From Haloterrigena salifodinae (lineage in GTDB: Archaea; Halobacteriota; Halobacteria; Halobacteriales; Natrialbaceae): a stretch of 64,000 nucleotides of DNA. The stretch covers positions 620,001 through 684,000 of the forward strand of contig NZ_RQWN01000002.1 in NCBI RefSeq assembly GCF_003977755.1. Direction: 5' to 3'. Positions 41,932-51,162 of the stretch are shown here, piece by piece. Below the pieces are notes generated by a model that was not told the DNA's origin, made no database searches, and saw nothing but the letters and a program-made list of their open reading frames with translations. Every line of letters begins with the position of its first letter. The stretch's first letter is position 1. Position numbers and translations under genes: made by a program.

Positions 41932-42082
41932 GCCGTCGGTTCGCCGAGTTCGATTTCGGTTTTGTTTTCGCGACTGGCTCGAGCGATTGTAGCGACAATT
42001 TCACTCACTTGCAGTCGTTCTGACGGATCGTGTGCGCGGCGACAGCCCCGAGTTTAGCAGCGAAGCCGCAGCCACCGCTCCC

Positions 42083-42816
42083 ATGGACTGTCCGACGTGC
42101 GGAAAATCGCTGGCGGCGGAGCGGGGCGTGTGCCAGCACCATACGAAGGTCCACGACGAACCGCTACCGAACCGAACGTGCAAGGGGTGTGCACGGGGTT
42201 TTACGATCCGAAATCCCGCCGATCGTACTGCGACGACTGCGATCCTAACGCCGGGGAACACAACGACAACTGGTCCGACGCGACCGAAACGACGACCTGC
42301 GACTGTTGTGGCGACTCGTTTTCGTACTATCCGTCGACCAAGGACGGAACGTACTGTTCGGACTGCGTCGCGTCGGCCGACGGCCTCTTACCTGAGAATC
42401 CAAGCGAGTGACCGTTGCCTGCCAGCACTCGAAGCGACCCTCGAGGTCGTTCCCTCTCGAGCGACCGACCGATCGTACGGCGTCTGCTGTACGCTCGAGT
42501 GCTACGGTGCGTGGCTCTCGTCGAACGTCGTCGGCCCGGACACCACCAGTGGGAAGGTGGGTCGTTCGACTACGGCCAAAAGTGGTGGCAGATTCGACGG
42601 CAAACCCTCGAGCGCGACGGCTACGCGTGCCAGCATTGCGGGGCAGACAGGGACGACCTCGGACGGAATCCGGACGTACATCATTGCCAGCCCGTTCGGT
42701 CGTTCGACCGACTCGAGGACGCCCACACGCTGGATAACGTCGTCACCCTTTGCCGAAGCTGTCATCGGCGGGCCGAAGCGGGGACAATAGCGGTGTCCGC
42801 CGAGGACGAAAAGTAA
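42083..42816 (+). pseudogene. HNH endonuclease with several frameshifts
   Basis: A zinc-knuckle HNH endonuclease can be followed through changing frames. MDCPTCGKSLAAERG opens at 42083; the frame changes near 42195 (then YDPKSRRSYCDDCDPN and CDCCGDSFSYYPS), near 42405 (TVACQH), near 42430 (EVVPSRATDRSYGVCC and LSSNVVG), and near 42535 (HHQWEGGSFDYG and the HNH core DVHHCQPVRSF with LDNVVTLCRSCH). Intact relatives in this class read all parts in one frame. Four frame changes in about 730 bp, with clean neighbours on both sides, indicate decay rather than sequencing error. Confidence 0.75.
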
Positions 42817-42969: not shown

Positions 42970-43072
42970 AGTCCCGTGGTGTAGTGGCCAATCATATGGG
43001 CCTTTGGACGTGTTCGGTTCAGGCCGTCACGGAAGATAGCCCATGACGGCGGTTCGAATCCGCCCGGGACTA
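42970..43072 (+). tRNA. tRNA-Gln (anticodon UUG) with an intron
   Basis: The acceptor AGTCCCG (42970-42976) pairs with CGGGACT (43065-43071), followed by discriminator A. The T arm is GGCGG-TTCGAAT-CCGCC (43048-43064). The anticodon stem is TGGGC (42997-43001) with GCCCA (43039-43043); the loop CTTTGG/A has anticodon TTG at 43004-43006. A 30-nt insertion (43008-43037) after position 37 is the canonical archaeal intron place. Removing it leaves a 73-nt mature tRNA; CCA is not encoded. An intron in haloarchaeal tRNA-Gln(UUG) has precedent. Confidence 0.9.
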
Positions 43073-43173
43073 CTTTTGCGCCGAACAAACCGTGAGGCAC
43101 AAATATCCTCGGCGGTTCGTACCCAGAGGACGAGAGGATTCGAGTCCTCGCGGTTCGAATCCGCCCGGGACTA
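43049..43173 (+). repeat. Duplicated tRNA-Gln 3' end, attachment-site-like
   Basis: Twenty-four bases ending at the discriminator base of tRNA-Gln (43049-43072, beginning GCGGTTCGAATCC) are repeated exactly at 43150-43173, 101 bp downstream. The second copy lacks any anticodon arm or acceptor 5' strand, so it is not a second tRNA. Duplicated tRNA 3' ends are the usual product of integrase-mediated insertion. No integrase gene lies in the window. Confidence 0.65.
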
Positions 43174-43560: not shown

Positions 43561-45249
43561 ATGACACGGACGTCTGACCGTGACGACACCACACCGGCCG
43601 AGCATACCGAGGGCGAAGCGGATGGGCTAGATACGCTCGTCATCGGGATCGATGCGGGGTGTCGACCGGTCTTTGAGCGACTCTTCGAGGAGAACCGGAT
43701 TCCGACCATCGAGCGGCTGTGTACCGAGGGCGCAACCGCGCCGTTAGAGTCCCAGATTCCGCCGTGGACGCCGAGCGCCTGGCCGTCGATCTACACGGGT
43801 GTCAACCCCGGCAAACACGGCGTGGTTGGCTTTGTCGGCTACGATGGATACGACTGGCACGTGACGAGCAACGACGACGTCCAGGCGCACCCGCTGTGGA
43901 CGCTATTGGACCGACACGACCGCTCGAGCGTCGTCGTCAACGCGCCGGTGACCCACCCGCCCGACGAGTTCGACGGCGCGGTGATCCCCGGCTTTCTGGG
44001 GCCGGAGGATCCGCCCTGCCACCCCGAGGGGCTCCTCGAGGAGGTTCGCGACGAAATCGGCGAGTACCGTGTCTATCCCGCCTATACGCGCGGCGACGAC
44101 TCGCTGTCCGACGACGAAAAGATCGCGGAGTACCGAAACCTGATCCGGATGCGCGGCGAGGCGTTTCGGTACCTCGCCGAGGAGTTCGATCCCGATCTCG
44201 GCTTTCTCCAGTTCCAGAAGACGGACACGGTCTTCCACGAGTTCGCCGGCGACGAGGAACTCGTCAATCGGGTCTACGAAGCGACCGACGATCAGCTCGC
44301 GACGGTGCTCGAGGACTGCGATCCGGATCGCGTCTTCCTCGTGAGCGATCACGGGATGGGGCCGTACGACGGCTACGAGTTCCGGATCAACGAGTTTCTG
44401 CGGGACGAAGGCTACCTCGAGACGACGACCGGCGGCAAGGGGATGCCGTCGTGGACACCGATGCGCAGGCGGCTCCGCGAGGGCGAGGAGTGCGAGTCCT
44501 GGGAACCCGGCATGACGGCGCGTGCGGCGTCGATCGCCGCCCGGTTCGGGATCACCGCCAGTCGCATCAGAGCCGCCCTCGAGCGGGTCGGCCTCGCCGA
44601 TCTCGCGAGGGAGTACGCGCCGAGTGGCGTCTCGCGGACGGCCAACGAGCAGGTCGATTTCGTTAATTCCGCGGCCTACGTCCGGGCCCGAACCGAACTT
44701 GGCGTCCGGATCAACCTCGAGGGGCGGGATCCGAACGGGGTCGTTCCGCCCGAGGAGTACGAGTCGCTTCGCGAGGAGCTGATCCGGCGCCTGCAGTCGG
44801 TCGAGACTCCCGACGGCGAGGCGCTGTTCGAGACGGTCGCGCCGCGCGAGCGGTACTTCCACGGTGACCGCGTCGAGGATACCGTCGACATCGTGACGAT
44901 CCCCAACGGATTCGACCACATGATCTCCGAACAGCTACTCGACGGGGAATACTTCAGCCCGGCCGAACCGTGGAACCACAAGCTCGACGGGATTTTCGCG
45001 GCCGCCGGCGAGGGGATCGACGAGGAGGCGGCGCTCGATCGCGTCCACATTTTTGATGTCGCACCGACGGTCCTGTCTTCGATGGGCGTCCCGTACAGCG
45101 ATCACATGGACGGAAGTGTCGCGCCCGTCGCCGATCCGGTCGACCCGATATCGTACGCAACCTACGAGGACGACGGCGACGGTTCTGATCGGTCGGAGCC
45201 CGACGAAGACGTGACAGACCGGCTGGCCGATCTGGGGTATCTGAACTGA
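43561..45249 (+). CDS. Alkaline phosphatase-superfamily phosphodiesterase/phosphotransferase
   Basis: A 562-residue enzyme of the type I phosphodiesterase / nucleotide pyrophosphatase group. Metal ligands and nucleophile are visible: VIGIDAGCRP (D31), PPWTPSAWPSIYTG (probable nucleophile T70) followed by NPGKHGVVGF, then FQKTDTVFHEF, VFLVSDHGMGPYDG (metal D and H) and later NPNGFDHMIS/PWNHKLDGIF. No membrane span or signal peptide is present, so it acts in the cytoplasm. In archaeal surface-glycan clusters such proteins may transfer or remove phosphoryl head groups; the substrate is unknown. First gene of the accessory region. Confidence 0.85.
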   Translation: MTRTSDRDDTTPAEHTEGEADGLDTLVIGIDAGCRPVFERLFEENRIPTIERLCTEGATAPLESQIPPWTPSAWPSIYTGVNPGKHGVVGFVGYDGYDWHVTSNDDVQAHPLWTLLDRHDRSSVVVNAPVTHPPDEFDGAVIPGFLGPEDPPCHPEGLLEEVRDEIGEYRVYPAYTRGDDSLSDDEKIAEYRNLIRMRGEAFRYLAEEFDPDLGFLQFQKTDTVFHEFAGDEELVNRVYEATDDQLATVLEDCDPDRVFLVSDHGMGPYDGYEFRINEFLRDEGYLETTTGGKGMPSWTPMRRRLREGEECESWEPGMTARAASIAARFGITASRIRAALERVGLADLAREYAPSGVSRTANEQVDFVNSAAYVRARTELGVRINLEGRDPNGVVPPEEYESLREELIRRLQSVETPDGEALFETVAPRERYFHGDRVEDTVDIVTIPNGFDHMISEQLLDGEYFSPAEPWNHKLDGIFAAAGEGIDEEAALDRVHIFDVAPTVLSSMGVPYSDHMDGSVAPVADPVDPISYATYEDDGDGSDRSEPDEDVTDRLADLGYLN

Positions 45250-45352
45250 GTCGCCGACCGGCTCGAGGTCGTCCCGGTTACTACAACGGTCGCTTAGCTT
45301 CCGTATAGGTTTGGACGCCGTTCCCGACCACGTGATAGGAAACGGGCATTGC

Positions 45353-46009
45353 ATGGGATTTATCGCTGAAGTTCATCTCGTTCACGACGAGCTCGCGTTG
45401 GCATCGACGATCGCAAACCATCCCGAGACGACGTTCCGGTACGAGTACGAGGCGTCGACCGACGACCGTCGATACCAGTTTGTCTCCGTGTTCAGCGACG
45501 ACGAGGCGGCCGTCAAGGATTCGATGGCGTCGGACCCGACGGTCTCGGACCCAACCCTCATCGCGACGTTCGAGAATCGGACGATCTTCCGCGTCGCACT
45601 CGAGACCGACCTCGCGGTCCTCCCCGACTGGGGCGGCGAGCACGGACTGTTCGTGTTCACGGTGACAAGTGGCGAACGCGGCTGGGTCGCTCGCATCTAC
45701 CTGCCGAACCGGGACGCGCTGATCGCGTTTCGAGCGCGGTGTCGCGACCGTGGAATCTCCTTTCGCGTGACTCAGCTGTACGATACGTCGGTCTCCGACA
45801 GCGGCACCTTCCACCTGACCGACCAGCAACACGAGATCCTCATGATGGCCTACTACGGCGGCTACTTCGATATTCCCCGCGGAATCACGCAGGACGATCT
45901 GGCCGAACGGCTCGGCATTTCGGACTCGGCGGTCTCCCAGCGGATCCGACGCGCTACCGCGGAACTGATCGCGGCGACGATCGAGAACGATCGGATGCCG
46001 AATCAGTAA
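45353..46009 (+). CDS. Bat-like HTH_10 transcriptional regulator
   Basis: A 218-residue regulator with an N-terminal sensor-like region of about 150 residues typical of bacterio-opsin-activator-related proteins and a C-terminal HTH_10 domain (LTDQQHEILMMAYYGGYFDIP, then LAERLGISDSAVSQRIRRA). Such proteins usually bind near their own cluster. The start MGFIAEVHLVHDELAL at 45353 matches the family N-terminus; the frame extends 42 bp further up. Placed between the phosphodiesterase and the beta-helix protein, it may regulate surface-polymer genes; that is inference. Confidence 0.86.
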   Translation: MGFIAEVHLVHDELALASTIANHPETTFRYEYEASTDDRRYQFVSVFSDDEAAVKDSMASDPTVSDPTLIATFENRTIFRVALETDLAVLPDWGGEHGLFVFTVTSGERGWVARIYLPNRDALIAFRARCRDRGISFRVTQLYDTSVSDSGTFHLTDQQHEILMMAYYGGYFDIPRGITQDDLAERLGISDSAVSQRIRRATAELIAATIENDRMPNQ

Positions 46010-46304
46010 CTGGAGTGAAACGAGCGGGCACTTGAGGGGGGTGTTCTATCGATGTCGGACGAGCGTCAGACGAAATATCGGACATATTATTGACATTAGC
46101 ACTGAACGAATTAGTAATTCAGAGAGACGCCGAATATCGCCACGAGTGCGCTTCAGACCGGAGATTATTATCCCGGCAATCAGTTGTGTCTGCTGCAAGT
46201 GTTGGTTAATCTACCACTACCCCATAGGGTTTCAAACTTAAAAGCTTGCTATCCGAAGCCATAGTTACTGGACCCCGTCATCACTCAGAAAGAAGTGAAT
46301 ATCA

Positions 46305-47960
46305 ATGGTGGAACGAAGCGATCTGCGGCATTCGGATGGGATGAACTCGCCGCAGTTTCAGTCGGATGGGAACGGTACCGATCGATCTACTGACGACGGA
46401 CGAACAGATGCAGGACAAACACGACGCACGGTGCTCGGTGGACTCGTGGCTGCAGGTGCAGCTGGTCTCGGTCTGTCGACGACCGCCGGCGCCTCGAGCG
46501 CGGCGGTCCCGTACGAGGAATACCACGACGAGTACGAGAACGTCGTCGACGTCGTCGAGGCCGGCGCGGACAACACTGGGACGGAATCGATCACGCCCGT
46601 CCTCGAGGACCTGCGCGCCGACGACACGCTGTTCGTCTTCCCGGAGGGGCGCTACTACATGGACGAGCAGTTCAGATACACGGGCTTCGAGAATATCGGC
46701 TTCGTCGGCGACGGCGCGACGCTCGTCCCGGCGGATTACCACGCCTTCGACGGCCCGCAGTTTCGGCTGTTCCGTCTCGGCGTCACCTACAACCCCGGCA
46801 GTCGCCTCCGATTCGAGGGGTTCGAGGTCGATCAGACGGCCCCCGATACCGGGATCCGAGCGATCGAAGCCTACGTCTCCGATCGGCTCGAGGTGCGCGA
46901 CATCACCGTTCGCGGCCAGCACGACAGCGGGACGTGGGGTCCGGGACTGTTCAACATCACCGATCCCGACGGGACGGGGCTCGTTGAGCGGTTTCGGGCG
47001 CCGGACGGCGGTGCGTGGGTCGAGAACACGCCGAACGCGGGCCAGCGCTGGCGTGGCCCGATCGGGATCGAGGCTAACCAGAACGCGGGTACCCTCGAGT
47101 TCAAACACTGCTGGCTTGGCGGCTTCCCGAACAACGGGCTCTACGCGGCGGGCAGCGAGGGACAGATCGTAGTCAGCGGCGGTCTCTACCGGAACAGTAA
47201 CGGAGCGAACATCCGCGTCGGCGGCGCGAACAGCGTGATCCAGTGGCCGACGGTCGAGGTTGACGAGTCGCGACCGGAGGATCGATCCCAGCGCGGGATC
47301 CGGATCGAGAAAGGTCGAGACATCGAAATCTACGGTGCACTCGTCGATATTACCTCGCCGATGCCGACGAGCCATGCGATCTCGGTGATGAACACCTGCG
47401 AAAAGGCTCGAATCAAAAACACCGAGGTTCGGATCCGCGGGTCGAGCGTCAACCACGGCATCGTCCTCTCGCCCGACTCCGGCGAGACGACGATCGCAGA
47501 CACGTCGATCAGCCACGAGACCGCGGGCGGGTATCCGCTGTGGATCCGCGACAGCGACAGATCCGATCGAATCCTCGCCGAACACCTCACGATCTCGGGC
47601 CGATCCGGCGACGCCAGTGGCTTCCGCGACGGGATCCGTTGTGAACGGGACAACTGCCGGTTCAGCCACATCTCGGTCACCCAAGAGGGTCGAGACGGGA
47701 CCGAACGGAATGCCATCGTCAACACGGGCGCGGACCTGACCGTCTACAAGAGCGAGCTGCGCGCCAGCCAGTATCCGTACCTCGACGTCGGGACCGACGC
47801 GCTCGTTCGCGACTCCGACCTCGAGTCGACGGGCGGTGAGGAAGCCGTCTGTCTCTACGCGTCCTCAGAGAACCCAACCTTCAAGAAGAATCGCCTCGCG
47901 GGCGGGATCCGCGACCTCGGCGCGAGTGGCGTCACGACCTGGGAGAACACGATCGAATAG
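46305..47960 (+). CDS. Tat-exported right-handed parallel beta-helix protein
   Basis: A 551-residue exported protein. A twin-arginine signal lies after an unusually long hydrophilic head: QTRRTVLGGLVAAGAAGLGL (residues about 39-58), cut near AGASSA. The mature part shows repeated short strands such as NIGFVGDGATLVPADYH, IGIEANQNAGTLEFKH, IRVGGANSVIQWPT and KNTEVRIRGSS, typical of pectate-lyase-like beta helices that bind or cleave polysaccharide. No catalytic triad is recognisable. The 295-bp upstream gap is AT-rich and holds a TATA-like ACTTAAAAGC at 46236-46245. Confidence 0.82.
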   Translation: MVERSDLRHSDGMNSPQFQSDGNGTDRSTDDGRTDAGQTRRTVLGGLVAAGAAGLGLSTTAGASSAAVPYEEYHDEYENVVDVVEAGADNTGTESITPVLEDLRADDTLFVFPEGRYYMDEQFRYTGFENIGFVGDGATLVPADYHAFDGPQFRLFRLGVTYNPGSRLRFEGFEVDQTAPDTGIRAIEAYVSDRLEVRDITVRGQHDSGTWGPGLFNITDPDGTGLVERFRAPDGGAWVENTPNAGQRWRGPIGIEANQNAGTLEFKHCWLGGFPNNGLYAAGSEGQIVVSGGLYRNSNGANIRVGGANSVIQWPTVEVDESRPEDRSQRGIRIEKGRDIEIYGALVDITSPMPTSHAISVMNTCEKARIKNTEVRIRGSSVNHGIVLSPDSGETTIADTSISHETAGGYPLWIRDSDRSDRILAEHLTISGRSGDASGFRDGIRCERDNCRFSHISVTQEGRDGTERNAIVNTGADLTVYKSELRASQYPYLDVGTDALVRDSDLESTGGEEAVCLYASSENPTFKKNRLAGGIRDLGASGVTTWENTIE

Positions 47961-48140
47961 TCGAGACGGTCCCCCTTGCGAGGACGGAGATCTACTGTAT
48001 CGGCCATTTACCGGGGTTTAACACCCGTATAATAAGTCTTCATCGTCGCCACGTCGCACTACTGTGAGCACGTTGGATGCTGAACGGGCGTCGGCGAGGG
48101 GAGCCGCCGATCCTCAGCACGGACGCTCCCCGGTGAGAGC

Positions 48141-49781
48141 GTGAATCGAAGTATCGCGAGCGGCGTCTTCTCGGTCGTCAGTGTGAAGGTCGTCGTGCAG
48201 CTCCTCACTGCCCTCTCGACGCCGCTCCTCTATCGGTTTCTCGGCCCGTCGAAGTACGGGGACTACGCGTTCCTGCTGTCCGTGTTCGCCATCTACATGA
48301 TCTTCGTGAGCTCCGGCGTCACCGACGGCGTCCGGAAGTTCCTCGCGGAGGATCGCAACGACGCGAACTGGAGCGAACACGTCGTCGGCTTCTACTTTCG
48401 GCTGGCCATCGGTCTCGCCGCCGTCGGCGCCTTCCTGTTGATACTCGCCGCCCGATTGGGAATCGTCGACCGCGCGTTCGGAGACGGGTTCGCGATCTAC
48501 TTCTATGCGCTCGCCGCCCTCGTCGTGACGGCCCAGTTTCGCGACTACGCCCGAAAGACGCTGATGGGCTTCGGCCTCGAGCGCTACTCGGAGCCGCTGA
48601 AGATCCTCGATACGGTCTCGTTCATCGTCGTCGCTATCCCGCTGGCGTACGTCGGGGTCGGCGTAATGGGGGTCCTCGCCGGCCATCTGGTCGCGAGTCT
48701 GCTCGTGGCCGTCGCCGGACTGGCCATCGTTAACCGCCGGGTTCCGCTGACGTGTCTCTCGAGTACGCCGACCGAACGGTTCCCGCGCAAGCAGATGCTC
48801 ACGTTCAACACGATGAGCATTGTGCTCGTGTTCCTGCTGATGTCGCTGTACCACATCGACATCGTGATGCTCCAGCGGTTCCGGACGAGCGCGGACGTGG
48901 GGAACTACAAGGCGGCGCTGACGCTGGCCGAGTTCCTCTGGTTCGTCCCGCTGGCGATCCAGACCGTCTTCGTCCACTCGACGTCGGAGCTGTGGTCCCA
49001 GAACCGCCGCCGAAAGATCTCGAAACTGGCGTCGCGGGCGACGCGGTACACGTTCCTCCTGACGGCCGTCATGGCGGTCGGGCTGGCGGCGCTGGCCGAC
49101 ATCGCCGTGCCGATTTACTTCGGCGACGAAGCCGTTCCGGCGATCGAACCCCTCCTGTTGTTGCTGCCGGGGGCGCTCGGATTCGCGCTCGCACGACCGA
49201 TCCTCGCGGTCTCGCAGGGCAAAGGGAACCTCCGGTATCCGATCGCGGCCACCGGCGTGGCGGCGCTGCTCAACGTCGTCCTCAACGCCGCGCTCATTCC
49301 GCGCTACGGCATGCACGGTGCGGCCGTCGCGACCAGTATCGGCTACGGAACGATGTTCGTCTGTCACTGCTGGAGCGCCCGTCGCGTCGGTTTCGATCCA
49401 CTCGCCGACGCGCGACTCGCTCGAGCGGCGTTGACGACCGTTCTCGCGGCCGCTCCCATCATCGCCCTCGCGACGGTAATCACGAATCCGTGGTTCGCGC
49501 TCGCGGTGGTCCCGCCGGTCGGGTTCGTGATCTTCGTCGGCTTCGCGCTGCTGGTCGGCGCGCTAGACCCGTCCGAACCGTTCGAGATCCTCTCGGTGTT
49601 TCCCGATCCGATCGGCTCCCGGGCGGCCGCGATACAGGTGTCGTTCGAGGGCGAGGGTGACGAGGACGGCGAAACGCGAAGTTGGCTTCAGAGCCTGCTG
49701 TTCGTCGCCGGGTTGTCGCTGTTCGTTTCCGGACTCGCGCTGGGCATCCTCGGCACCGGCATCCAGAGTCTCCTTCCCTGA
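48141..49781 (+). CDS. Polysaccharide flippase (Wzx/MATE-like, MOP superfamily)
   Basis: A 546-residue multi-span protein (about 14 helices) that should flip lipid-linked sugar units across the membrane. The N-terminus NRSIASGVFSVVSVKVVVQL and the stretch STPLLYRFLGPSKYGDYAFL are typical of the MOP/Wzx group, as is FRTSADVGNYKAALTLAEF in the middle. The start is a GTG at 48141. A TATA-like GTATAATAAG lies at about 48029-48038. The charged C-terminal segment (about residues 480-515) is cytoplasmic. Confidence 0.87.
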   Translation: MNRSIASGVFSVVSVKVVVQLLTALSTPLLYRFLGPSKYGDYAFLLSVFAIYMIFVSSGVTDGVRKFLAEDRNDANWSEHVVGFYFRLAIGLAAVGAFLLILAARLGIVDRAFGDGFAIYFYALAALVVTAQFRDYARKTLMGFGLERYSEPLKILDTVSFIVVAIPLAYVGVGVMGVLAGHLVASLLVAVAGLAIVNRRVPLTCLSSTPTERFPRKQMLTFNTMSIVLVFLLMSLYHIDIVMLQRFRTSADVGNYKAALTLAEFLWFVPLAIQTVFVHSTSELWSQNRRRKISKLASRATRYTFLLTAVMAVGLAALADIAVPIYFGDEAVPAIEPLLLLLPGALGFALARPILAVSQGKGNLRYPIAATGVAALLNVVLNAALIPRYGMHGAAVATSIGYGTMFVCHCWSARRVGFDPLADARLARAALTTVLAAAPIIALATVITNPWFALAVVPPVGFVIFVGFALLVGALDPSEPFEILSVFPDPIGSRAAAIQVSFEGEGDEDGETRSWLQSLLFVAGLSLFVSGLALGILGTGIQSLLP

Positions 49782-50106
49782 TCGATCGGCGGAGCGAATG
49801 CGACCGATCGGGTTCGATCCCGATTCGCGCGGAACGCCGTTGCTGTTCCTCGAACGAACCGCTCGAGAGGGCGCGGTCGATTGGTCGATTGTGACCGTCG
49901 AGTGCAGTATTCGGATATTCGCTCGAGTTGACTCTGACTCATAGGCCGATTGAGAACTGGTTACACTGCGGACTGACGAGTCGAAGCCTGACGCGAAGTG
50001 CACTCGAGAACGGCGAACAGTCGACGGAAGCAGAAACCGGACAGCTGGGCGAATCACGACAACGGAACCGGAGACACGACGAGCGATCTCGACGACGAAC
50101 GCGGGA
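49782..50106. other. Intergenic gap between convergent flippase and glycosyltransferase genes
   Basis: No gene or family match is recognisable in these 325 bp. The genes on either side converge here, so only transcription ends are expected. No clear long hairpin or repeat stands out. Confidence 0.5.
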
Positions 50107-51162
50107 CTAGCGGACCTGGCGCTCGAGGTGTTCGCTCTCGGCCATGTCGAACACCATCGCGAACAGGAGGAACGCGATGCCGGCGACGAGCAGGAACACG
50201 GTCGTCGACCCCTGCACCGACGGACCGACCGTCGCGAGCGTCGCGAACAGCGTCACGACGGTGGCGAGGATGCCAGTCGCGGCCAGCCCGGCGCCGACGA
50301 GGTAGAAGAACGCAAGCGGGTGGAAATCGAGCACGAGGTACTTCGTCTTCAGCCGCCACAGGAAGTTACGCAGGAGCATCGTCGACACCTTCGGGATGTA
50401 CTCCGAGTACGTGATGCTCGACTCCTCATCGCCGTAGACGGCCGGCATGGCCACGTCGGCAATGCGCATCCCGTGGACGTTCAGCTTCACCAATAGGTCG
50501 TTACAGTAGCCGTAGTACTCGTAGAGGTTCTCCAAGTCGATCGCCTCGAGGGCGTCGCCGGAGATGGCCGTGTAGCCGTTCTGGGGGTCCATCGTCTTCC
50601 AGTAGCCGGAGGCGATCTTGGTCAGGAACGAGAGGATCGCGTTCCCGACGAACCGAAACCGCGGCATCGCCGCGCGGTACTCCCGCGAGAGGAGGCGGTT
50701 CCCCTTCGCGTAGTCGGCCTCGTTCTCGACGAGCGGGTCGAGCAGCCGCGGCATCTGTGAGAGGTCCATCTGCCCGTCGGCGTCGACCGTTACGGTCGCG
50801 TCCACGCCGTCGGCGCGCGCGGCGAGATAGCCGGTTTTGATCGCTCCGCCGGCGCCGCGGTTCTCGCGGTGGCGGATCGGGACGACCCGTCCGATCGCGT
50901 CCCGGACGGACGCCCGTTCGGTCAGCATGGACGCGCCGCCGTCGGTCACGAGCGCCCCGTCGTCGGCCGCGTCGCGTCCCGCGTTCGCGTTGGCGTCGTC
51001 GCGGGCCGCCTCGAGGATCTCGTCCCAGGTCTCGTCGGTCGAGCGGTCGTCGATGGCGTAGATCCGATCGACGTAGTCGGGCATCTCGCAGATCACGTCG
51101 CCGACGAACCCCTCCTCGTCGTACGCCGGCACCACGACGCCGATCGAGGCTCCGCGGTACAT
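50107..51162 (-). CDS. Family 2 glycosyltransferase with two C-terminal membrane helices
   Basis: A 351-residue membrane-bound glycosyltransferase. The GT-A fold shows SIGVVVPAYDEEGFVGDVI, IYAIDDRSTDETWDEI, the donor-site ENRGAGGAIKTGYLAA and DATVTVDADGQMD. Two hydrophobic spans follow at about residues 280-310 and 318-340, as in dolichol-phosphate sugar synthases. An Asp/Ala-rich insertion of about 35 residues lies between the first two motifs. It overlaps the upstream deacetylase-like gene by one base (TGATG), so the two are translated together. Confidence 0.88.
   Translation of the reverse strand: MYRGASIGVVVPAYDEEGFVGDVICEMPDYVDRIYAIDDRSTDETWDEILEAARDDANANAGRDAADDGALVTDGGASMLTERASVRDAIGRVVPIRHRENRGAGGAIKTGYLAARADGVDATVTVDADGQMDLSQMPRLLDPLVENEADYAKGNRLLSREYRAAMPRFRFVGNAILSFLTKIASGYWKTMDPQNGYTAISGDALEAIDLENLYEYYGYCNDLLVKLNVHGMRIADVAMPAVYGDEESSITYSEYIPKVSTMLLRNFLWRLKTKYLVLDFHPLAFFYLVGAGLAATGILATVVTLFATLATVGPSVQGSTTVFLLVAGIAFLLFAMVFDMAESEHLERQVR

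Follow-up and report, generated by a model that had tools for sequence, protein, structure and literature searches.

A hairpin-forming 101-bp repeat behind tRNA-Gln of Haloterrigena salifodinae belongs to a family of tRNA-matched, possibly mobile units in haloarchaea

A stretch of 64,000 nucleotides from Haloterrigena salifodinae (contig NZ_RQWN01000002.1, positions 620,001 to 684,000; referred to below as the window) contains a tRNA-Gln(UUG) gene followed directly by a 101-bp segment that ends in a copy of the 3' end of this gene. Units of the same anatomy were found behind many other haloarchaeal tRNA genes, matched to their own host tRNAs, with covarying hairpins, a rapid turnover, precise empty sites and tandem arrays. 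In our judgement the case is evenly balanced that the segment is a copy of a tiny, non-coding mobile repeat family of haloarchaeal tRNA 3' ends, with a putative excision, integration and enzyme.

The tRNA-Gln gene, the host of the element, occupies positions 42970-43072 of the + strand (Rfam RF00005, 50.7 bits). Its end, GCGGTTCGAATCCGCCCGGGACTA at 43049-43072, was found again as an exact second copy at 43150-43173, on the same strand and with a start-to-start spacing of 101 bp, without the remainder of a tRNA, just as the first-pass annotation of the window had described it. A search of the window with the 25-base query GGCGGTTCGAATCCGCCCGGGACTA, allowing up to three mismatches, returned two matching places as against 0.00 in shuffled sequences.

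The general layout of a unit is a body of about 80 bp, usually made up of hairpin A and the 5' arm and tip of hairpin B, followed by a 21-bp tail. In the window, one such unit covers 43073-43173 (+ strand, as are all its parts). Hairpin A (43075-43103) was identified by folding and has a variable, covarying stem around the conserved core GAACAA..CGTGA with a tandem of G.A mismatches; 9 of its 10 pairs were changed on both sides among the units compared. Hairpin B, located approximately at 43106-43170, was found in the same fold, which for the unit as RNA had a z of -4.35, and was also supported by covariation. It consists of a 5' arm (43111-43123), which is an inverted, antisense copy of the host T-loop, a variable tip, and a 3' arm formed by the copy of the tRNA end. 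The same two hairpins were obtained when the window unit was folded as DNA.

The tail (43153-43173) reproduces tRNA positions 53-73, a 21-nt block located at 43052-43072 in the gene. In the identity profile of 74 tRNA/tail pairs, the copied block was sharply delimited, with identity at background at position 52 and past position 73, although its 5' edge may fall anywhere from 53 to 59, since tRNA positions 53-58 are near-universal. Hairpin A is not universal, as the tRNA-Gln locus L191 (genome G044) has tandem units of about 69 bp made of hairpin B and the tail only. A K-turn was considered for hairpin A and ruled out by inspection, the three-base bulge being missing.

A covariance model built from 13 units and run over the genome with E up to 1 gave 15 matches, each of them either immediately following a tRNA gene or forming part of an array that follows one. 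The tRNAs were Gln, Trp (two), His, Leu, Val (two), Met (two), Ser, Glu (two), Thr, Ile and Pro, and none of the 15 was a dispersed copy away from tRNAs, which would be a trait of SMR- or MITE-like repeats. Complete tRNA surveys were conducted in three genomes (this one, the congener G003 and G058 of another family), scoring a copy of the last 20 nt of each tRNA, with up to five mismatches, within 250 bp downstream. Such a copy was detected for 27 of 46, 21 of 47 and 26 of 44 tRNAs, respectively, and for no tRNA of the three genomes was it detected upstream. By the same criterion, unrelated tRNA pairs matched at rates of 0.3%, 0.3% and 2%, and in four non-haloarchaeal genomes of the phylum 1 of 44 tRNAs had a copy of its own end.

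The inverted arm was host-specific as well, with a mean mismatch of 1.69 to its own tRNA versus 2.90 +/- 0.10 in 5000 permutations, and the matching extended to the rarer T-loop types TTCGAACC, TTCAATTC and TTCAACTC. For 61 of 110 bodies, the closest body in other genomes stood behind a tRNA of the same type, 3% being expected at random. As a separate observation, the 3' side of the tRNA-Leu gene at G003:C1 490921-491005 carries a longer, decayed internal tRNA-Leu-like stretch and then a tail copy at about 208 bp; the decayed stretch is a partial tRNA of another kind.

By a search at the DNA level, tRNA-Gln was detected together with the following segment in many of 60 relatives, a congener being 94% identical over 214 bp and other genera and another family 86-92% identical. 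A strict DNA pattern, in which the hairpin A core was joined to the inverted T-loop, was searched in 84,980 species genomes and gave 53 loci, 51 of them haloarchaeal and two being chance matches in bacteria. The genera included Natrialba, Natrinema, Natronorubrum, Haloterrigena, Halostagnicola, Haloarcula, Halorhabdus, Haladaptatus and others. A tRNA called by ARAGORN lay no more than 160 bp from 45 of 54 pattern matches, and most of the others could be seen to follow a tRNA end in an array or at the edge of a contig. In a survey of 295 genomes of the phylum, 33 had a match to the covariance model, all belonging to one order, and a genome lacking a match may still hold divergent units.

Size variation of the kind expected from the first-pass annotation was found among relatives: none, one or two units were located behind tRNA-Gln in 22, 20 and 7 of 49 haloarchaeal genomes, respectively, so that 27 carried the element. 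Two tandem units, each closing with the tRNA 3' end, were present in G003, G016, G026, G040 and others. The bodies behind tRNA-Gln were 0.80-0.93 identical to the window unit in eleven genomes; at these loci, the 100 bp past the tail, and mostly the 100 bp upstream, were at the background of 0.5-0.7 given by forced global alignment. Identity to the window body was higher for the body of another genus (0.93) than for the one found in a congener (0.85). In a further congener (G001, locus L176), tRNA-Gln is followed directly by the sequence that flanks the tail in the window, which represents a clean empty site.

The turnover was also followed between two genomes of one genus, G000 and G003, for which 43 orthologous tRNA pairs were compared, most of them with upstream flanks more than 90% identical. 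A unit was present in both genomes at 15 pairs, in G000 only at 11, in G003 only at six and in neither at 11. Among the 15 shared units, six were at least 0.84 identical and nine only 0.26-0.76 identical; the sequences of these nine give the impression that a different element had taken the place of the earlier one. Precise empty sites were observed here too; in one example, the two genomes differed by 139 bp, with the duplicated tRNA end as the boundary and about 97% identity between the flanks.

When 59 units were aligned to the model, 92.4% of the cells were able to pair in comparison with 74.6% in shuffles, both sides had changed in 30 of 33 pairs, and 326 double-change cells were counted versus 89 in shuffles, the effect size being an upper figure, as the alignment leans to its structure. 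The signal was lost when the partners were slid. Hairpins kept as RNA should accumulate G.U mispairs greatly in excess of A.C mispairs. In the hairpin A stem, 33 G.U and 21 A.C mispairs were counted, not different from parity (p = 0.13), whereas the tRNA stems of the same genomes had 35 G.U and 4 A.C, a difference from hairpin A with p = 0.002. RNA-type selection is therefore not the obvious keeper of the hairpins, and this pattern of substitutions argues for their maintenance at the DNA level or for their correction by template switching. The conserved G.A tandem was located on the tRNA-sense strand in all cases.

Under the favoured explanation, a miniature mobile repeat, the 21-bp tail would be the site of attachment or the target. 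An intact tRNA and an empty site would remain after excision between the tRNA-end copies, and integration would occur at the same tRNA species in another genome, where the tRNA would stay intact because the incoming copy brings the same 53-73 sequence. The hairpins would be recognised by a trans-acting enzyme, which may be a tyrosine recombinase or may work on folded single strands, and the structure rather than the sequence would be kept because it is the hairpins that such an enzyme recognises. The spread over tRNA types would require later gene conversion of the tail and arm to the new host; conversion by the adjacent tRNA, along with palindrome correction, would be the simplest supplement.

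Several points weigh against this explanation. Its weakest point is the way in which the tail and the inverted arm are adapted to a new tRNA: the host-matched inverted T-loop copy calls for an additional process, either gene conversion or template switching. The bodies form tRNA-type lineages yet also cross types: for 49 of 110, the closest match lies behind a tRNA of another type, and an integration that is strictly matched to its site does not account for this. Ordinary recombination between 21-bp repeats would yield identical precise empty sites, and no circular form or transposition event was observed. No recombinase was seen, in line with the first-pass annotation, which had noted that no integrase was visible; five tyrosine recombinases were found in the genome, none of them at a surveyed tRNA, and the 101-bp unit carries no gene. 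No carrier was found: neither the strict pattern in viral contigs nor similar DNA in plasmid and phage collections gave a match; a looser viral pattern returned too many unspecific matches for use. The comparison of G.U and A.C mispairs, in turn, rests on small numbers.

Two other explanations each fit parts of the data. The unit could be a functional 3' trailer RNA, co-transcribed with the tRNA, whose hairpins would serve transcription end, 3' maturation or the release of a small RNA, the tail being a decoy for tRNA 3'-end enzymes. Its constant position on the tRNA strand directly behind the tRNA, the strong covariation, the stable RNA folds, and the conserved loop and G.A tandem on the sense strand all agree with such a role, which we nevertheless consider unlikely: the stems have no clear G.U excess, the unit is missing behind about half of tRNAs and at 22 of 49 tRNA-Gln loci, and it is replaced fast within a genus. 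Moreover, the Rfam scan of the window matched tRNA only and no other RNA family such as might be expected of an rtT-type repeat RNA.

The second explanation, to which we assign a similarly low probability, is a non-mobile by-product of DNA metabolism, in which template switching produces inverted triplications at tRNA 3' ends, gene conversion and quasi-palindrome correction keep them matched to the tRNA, and recombination between the repeats removes them. It accounts for the sense-antisense-sense order of the T-loop, for arms that match each other and the host, for the near parity of G.U and A.C mispairs and for the high turnover. However, such a process would not give unrelated tRNAs a common hairpin A core and recurring tips, and it leaves unexplained the bodies conserved between genera beside unalignable flanks as well as the restriction to haloarchaea.

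The scar of a larger, lost integrated element with its duplicated att site left behind, proposed in the first-pass annotation, is highly improbable even though haloarchaeal integrative elements do duplicate tRNA 3' ends (PMC7921747, PMC7230728, PMC8371274), because the body is conserved across many genera, in tandem and behind many tRNAs, and scars of unrelated elements would not share a structure. What stands of that proposal is an insertion- or excision-like difference at the tRNA 3' end, visible as the empty site of L176; the 101 bp are not a remnant but the element itself. A private scar and a repeat of a single locus were ruled out, the former by the conservation of the segment in other genera and the latter by the units behind many tRNA types.

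The tRNA-Gln gene contains a 30-nt intron (43009-43038, + strand), deduced by comparison with intronless orthologues such as L013 and L176. The intron was present in about half of the relatives and varied inside one genus (present in G000, G003 and G005, absent from G001, G002 and G004). With default settings ARAGORN missed the intron-containing gene at 42970-43072, and annotation pipelines may likewise miss it. Upstream, at 42032-42816, lies a gene for an HNH endonuclease that is apparently frameshifted, its zinc-ribbon parts being spread over different reading frames. The HNH domain was still scored in a frame of 133 amino acids (42415-42816), and the gene is probably decayed, which agrees with the first reading. 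Downstream, the region 43561-51162 encodes a type I phosphodiesterase, a bat-like helix-turn-helix regulator, a right-handed beta-helix protein, a polysaccharide flippase and a glycosyltransferase. The duplicated end had been taken to mark the edge of an accessory region, with a polysaccharide region downstream; genes of the polysaccharide type do lie there, but the repeat is not a special marker, as similar units stand behind 27 of the 46 tRNAs of the genome.

If the favoured explanation is true, about half of haloarchaeal tRNA genes bear a previously unrecognised, rapidly changing element, which would explain the partial tRNA genes found beside full copies in haloarchaeal annotations, would bear on the calling of integration sites and proviruses, and would provide a natural setting in which to test how archaea recombine folded DNA. 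Should the units prove to be RNA, a widespread tRNA-linked RNA family would be missing from Rfam. A literature search, with most subscription journals outside its reach, found no paper describing the hairpin family. It is possible, though doubtful, that the units represent a new class, namely a gene-free mobile element that uses folded DNA hairpins, adopts a sense and an antisense copy of the adjacent tRNA and occurs in small arrays at roughly one tRNA gene in two throughout an archaeal order.

The closest known architecture is that of the tyrT/rtT repeats of Escherichia coli, in which tandem units behind a tRNA each end in a copy of the tRNA 3' end. In the known case, these repeats concern one locus and one tRNA and have longer units, whereas the haloarchaeal units are found behind many tRNAs, each with its own copy, have an inverted T-loop arm and extend over a whole archaeal order. 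The attC sites of integrons were considered because the structure rather than the sequence is kept, and they were ruled out by inspection, as the attC core boxes do not fit.

The preferred targets of archaeal integrases are tRNA genes, in many cases their T stem-loop or 3' end (PMC8371274), and partial copies of tRNAs are left by proviruses and integrative elements of haloarchaea (PMC7230728, PMC7921747). The units resemble such tRNA-targeting elements (PMC8371274, PMC7921747, PMC7230728) in having the tRNA 3' end directly repeated at the two borders, in keeping the tRNA intact and in the possible tandem insertion, and, like them, have empty sites, at L176 and in the G000/G003 pairs. They differ in a length of about 100 bp, the lack of genes and of an integrase of their own, and a body common to many tRNA types. 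In Haloferax gibbonsii LR2-5, the main text of the genome report mentions 11 partial tRNAs, several directly beside a full copy, which are treated as remnants (PMC7921747). These may be the same phenomenon, although that main text describes no structure, family or host matching. Finally, the SMR and PATE repeats of Haloquadratum (PMC3119063) are likewise small (about 110 bp for SMR-A), gene-free and transposase-free mobile repeats with inverted repeats or palindromes, but they target other mobile elements with no target duplication, whereas the units described here are located at tRNA genes and carry a 21-bp tRNA copy.
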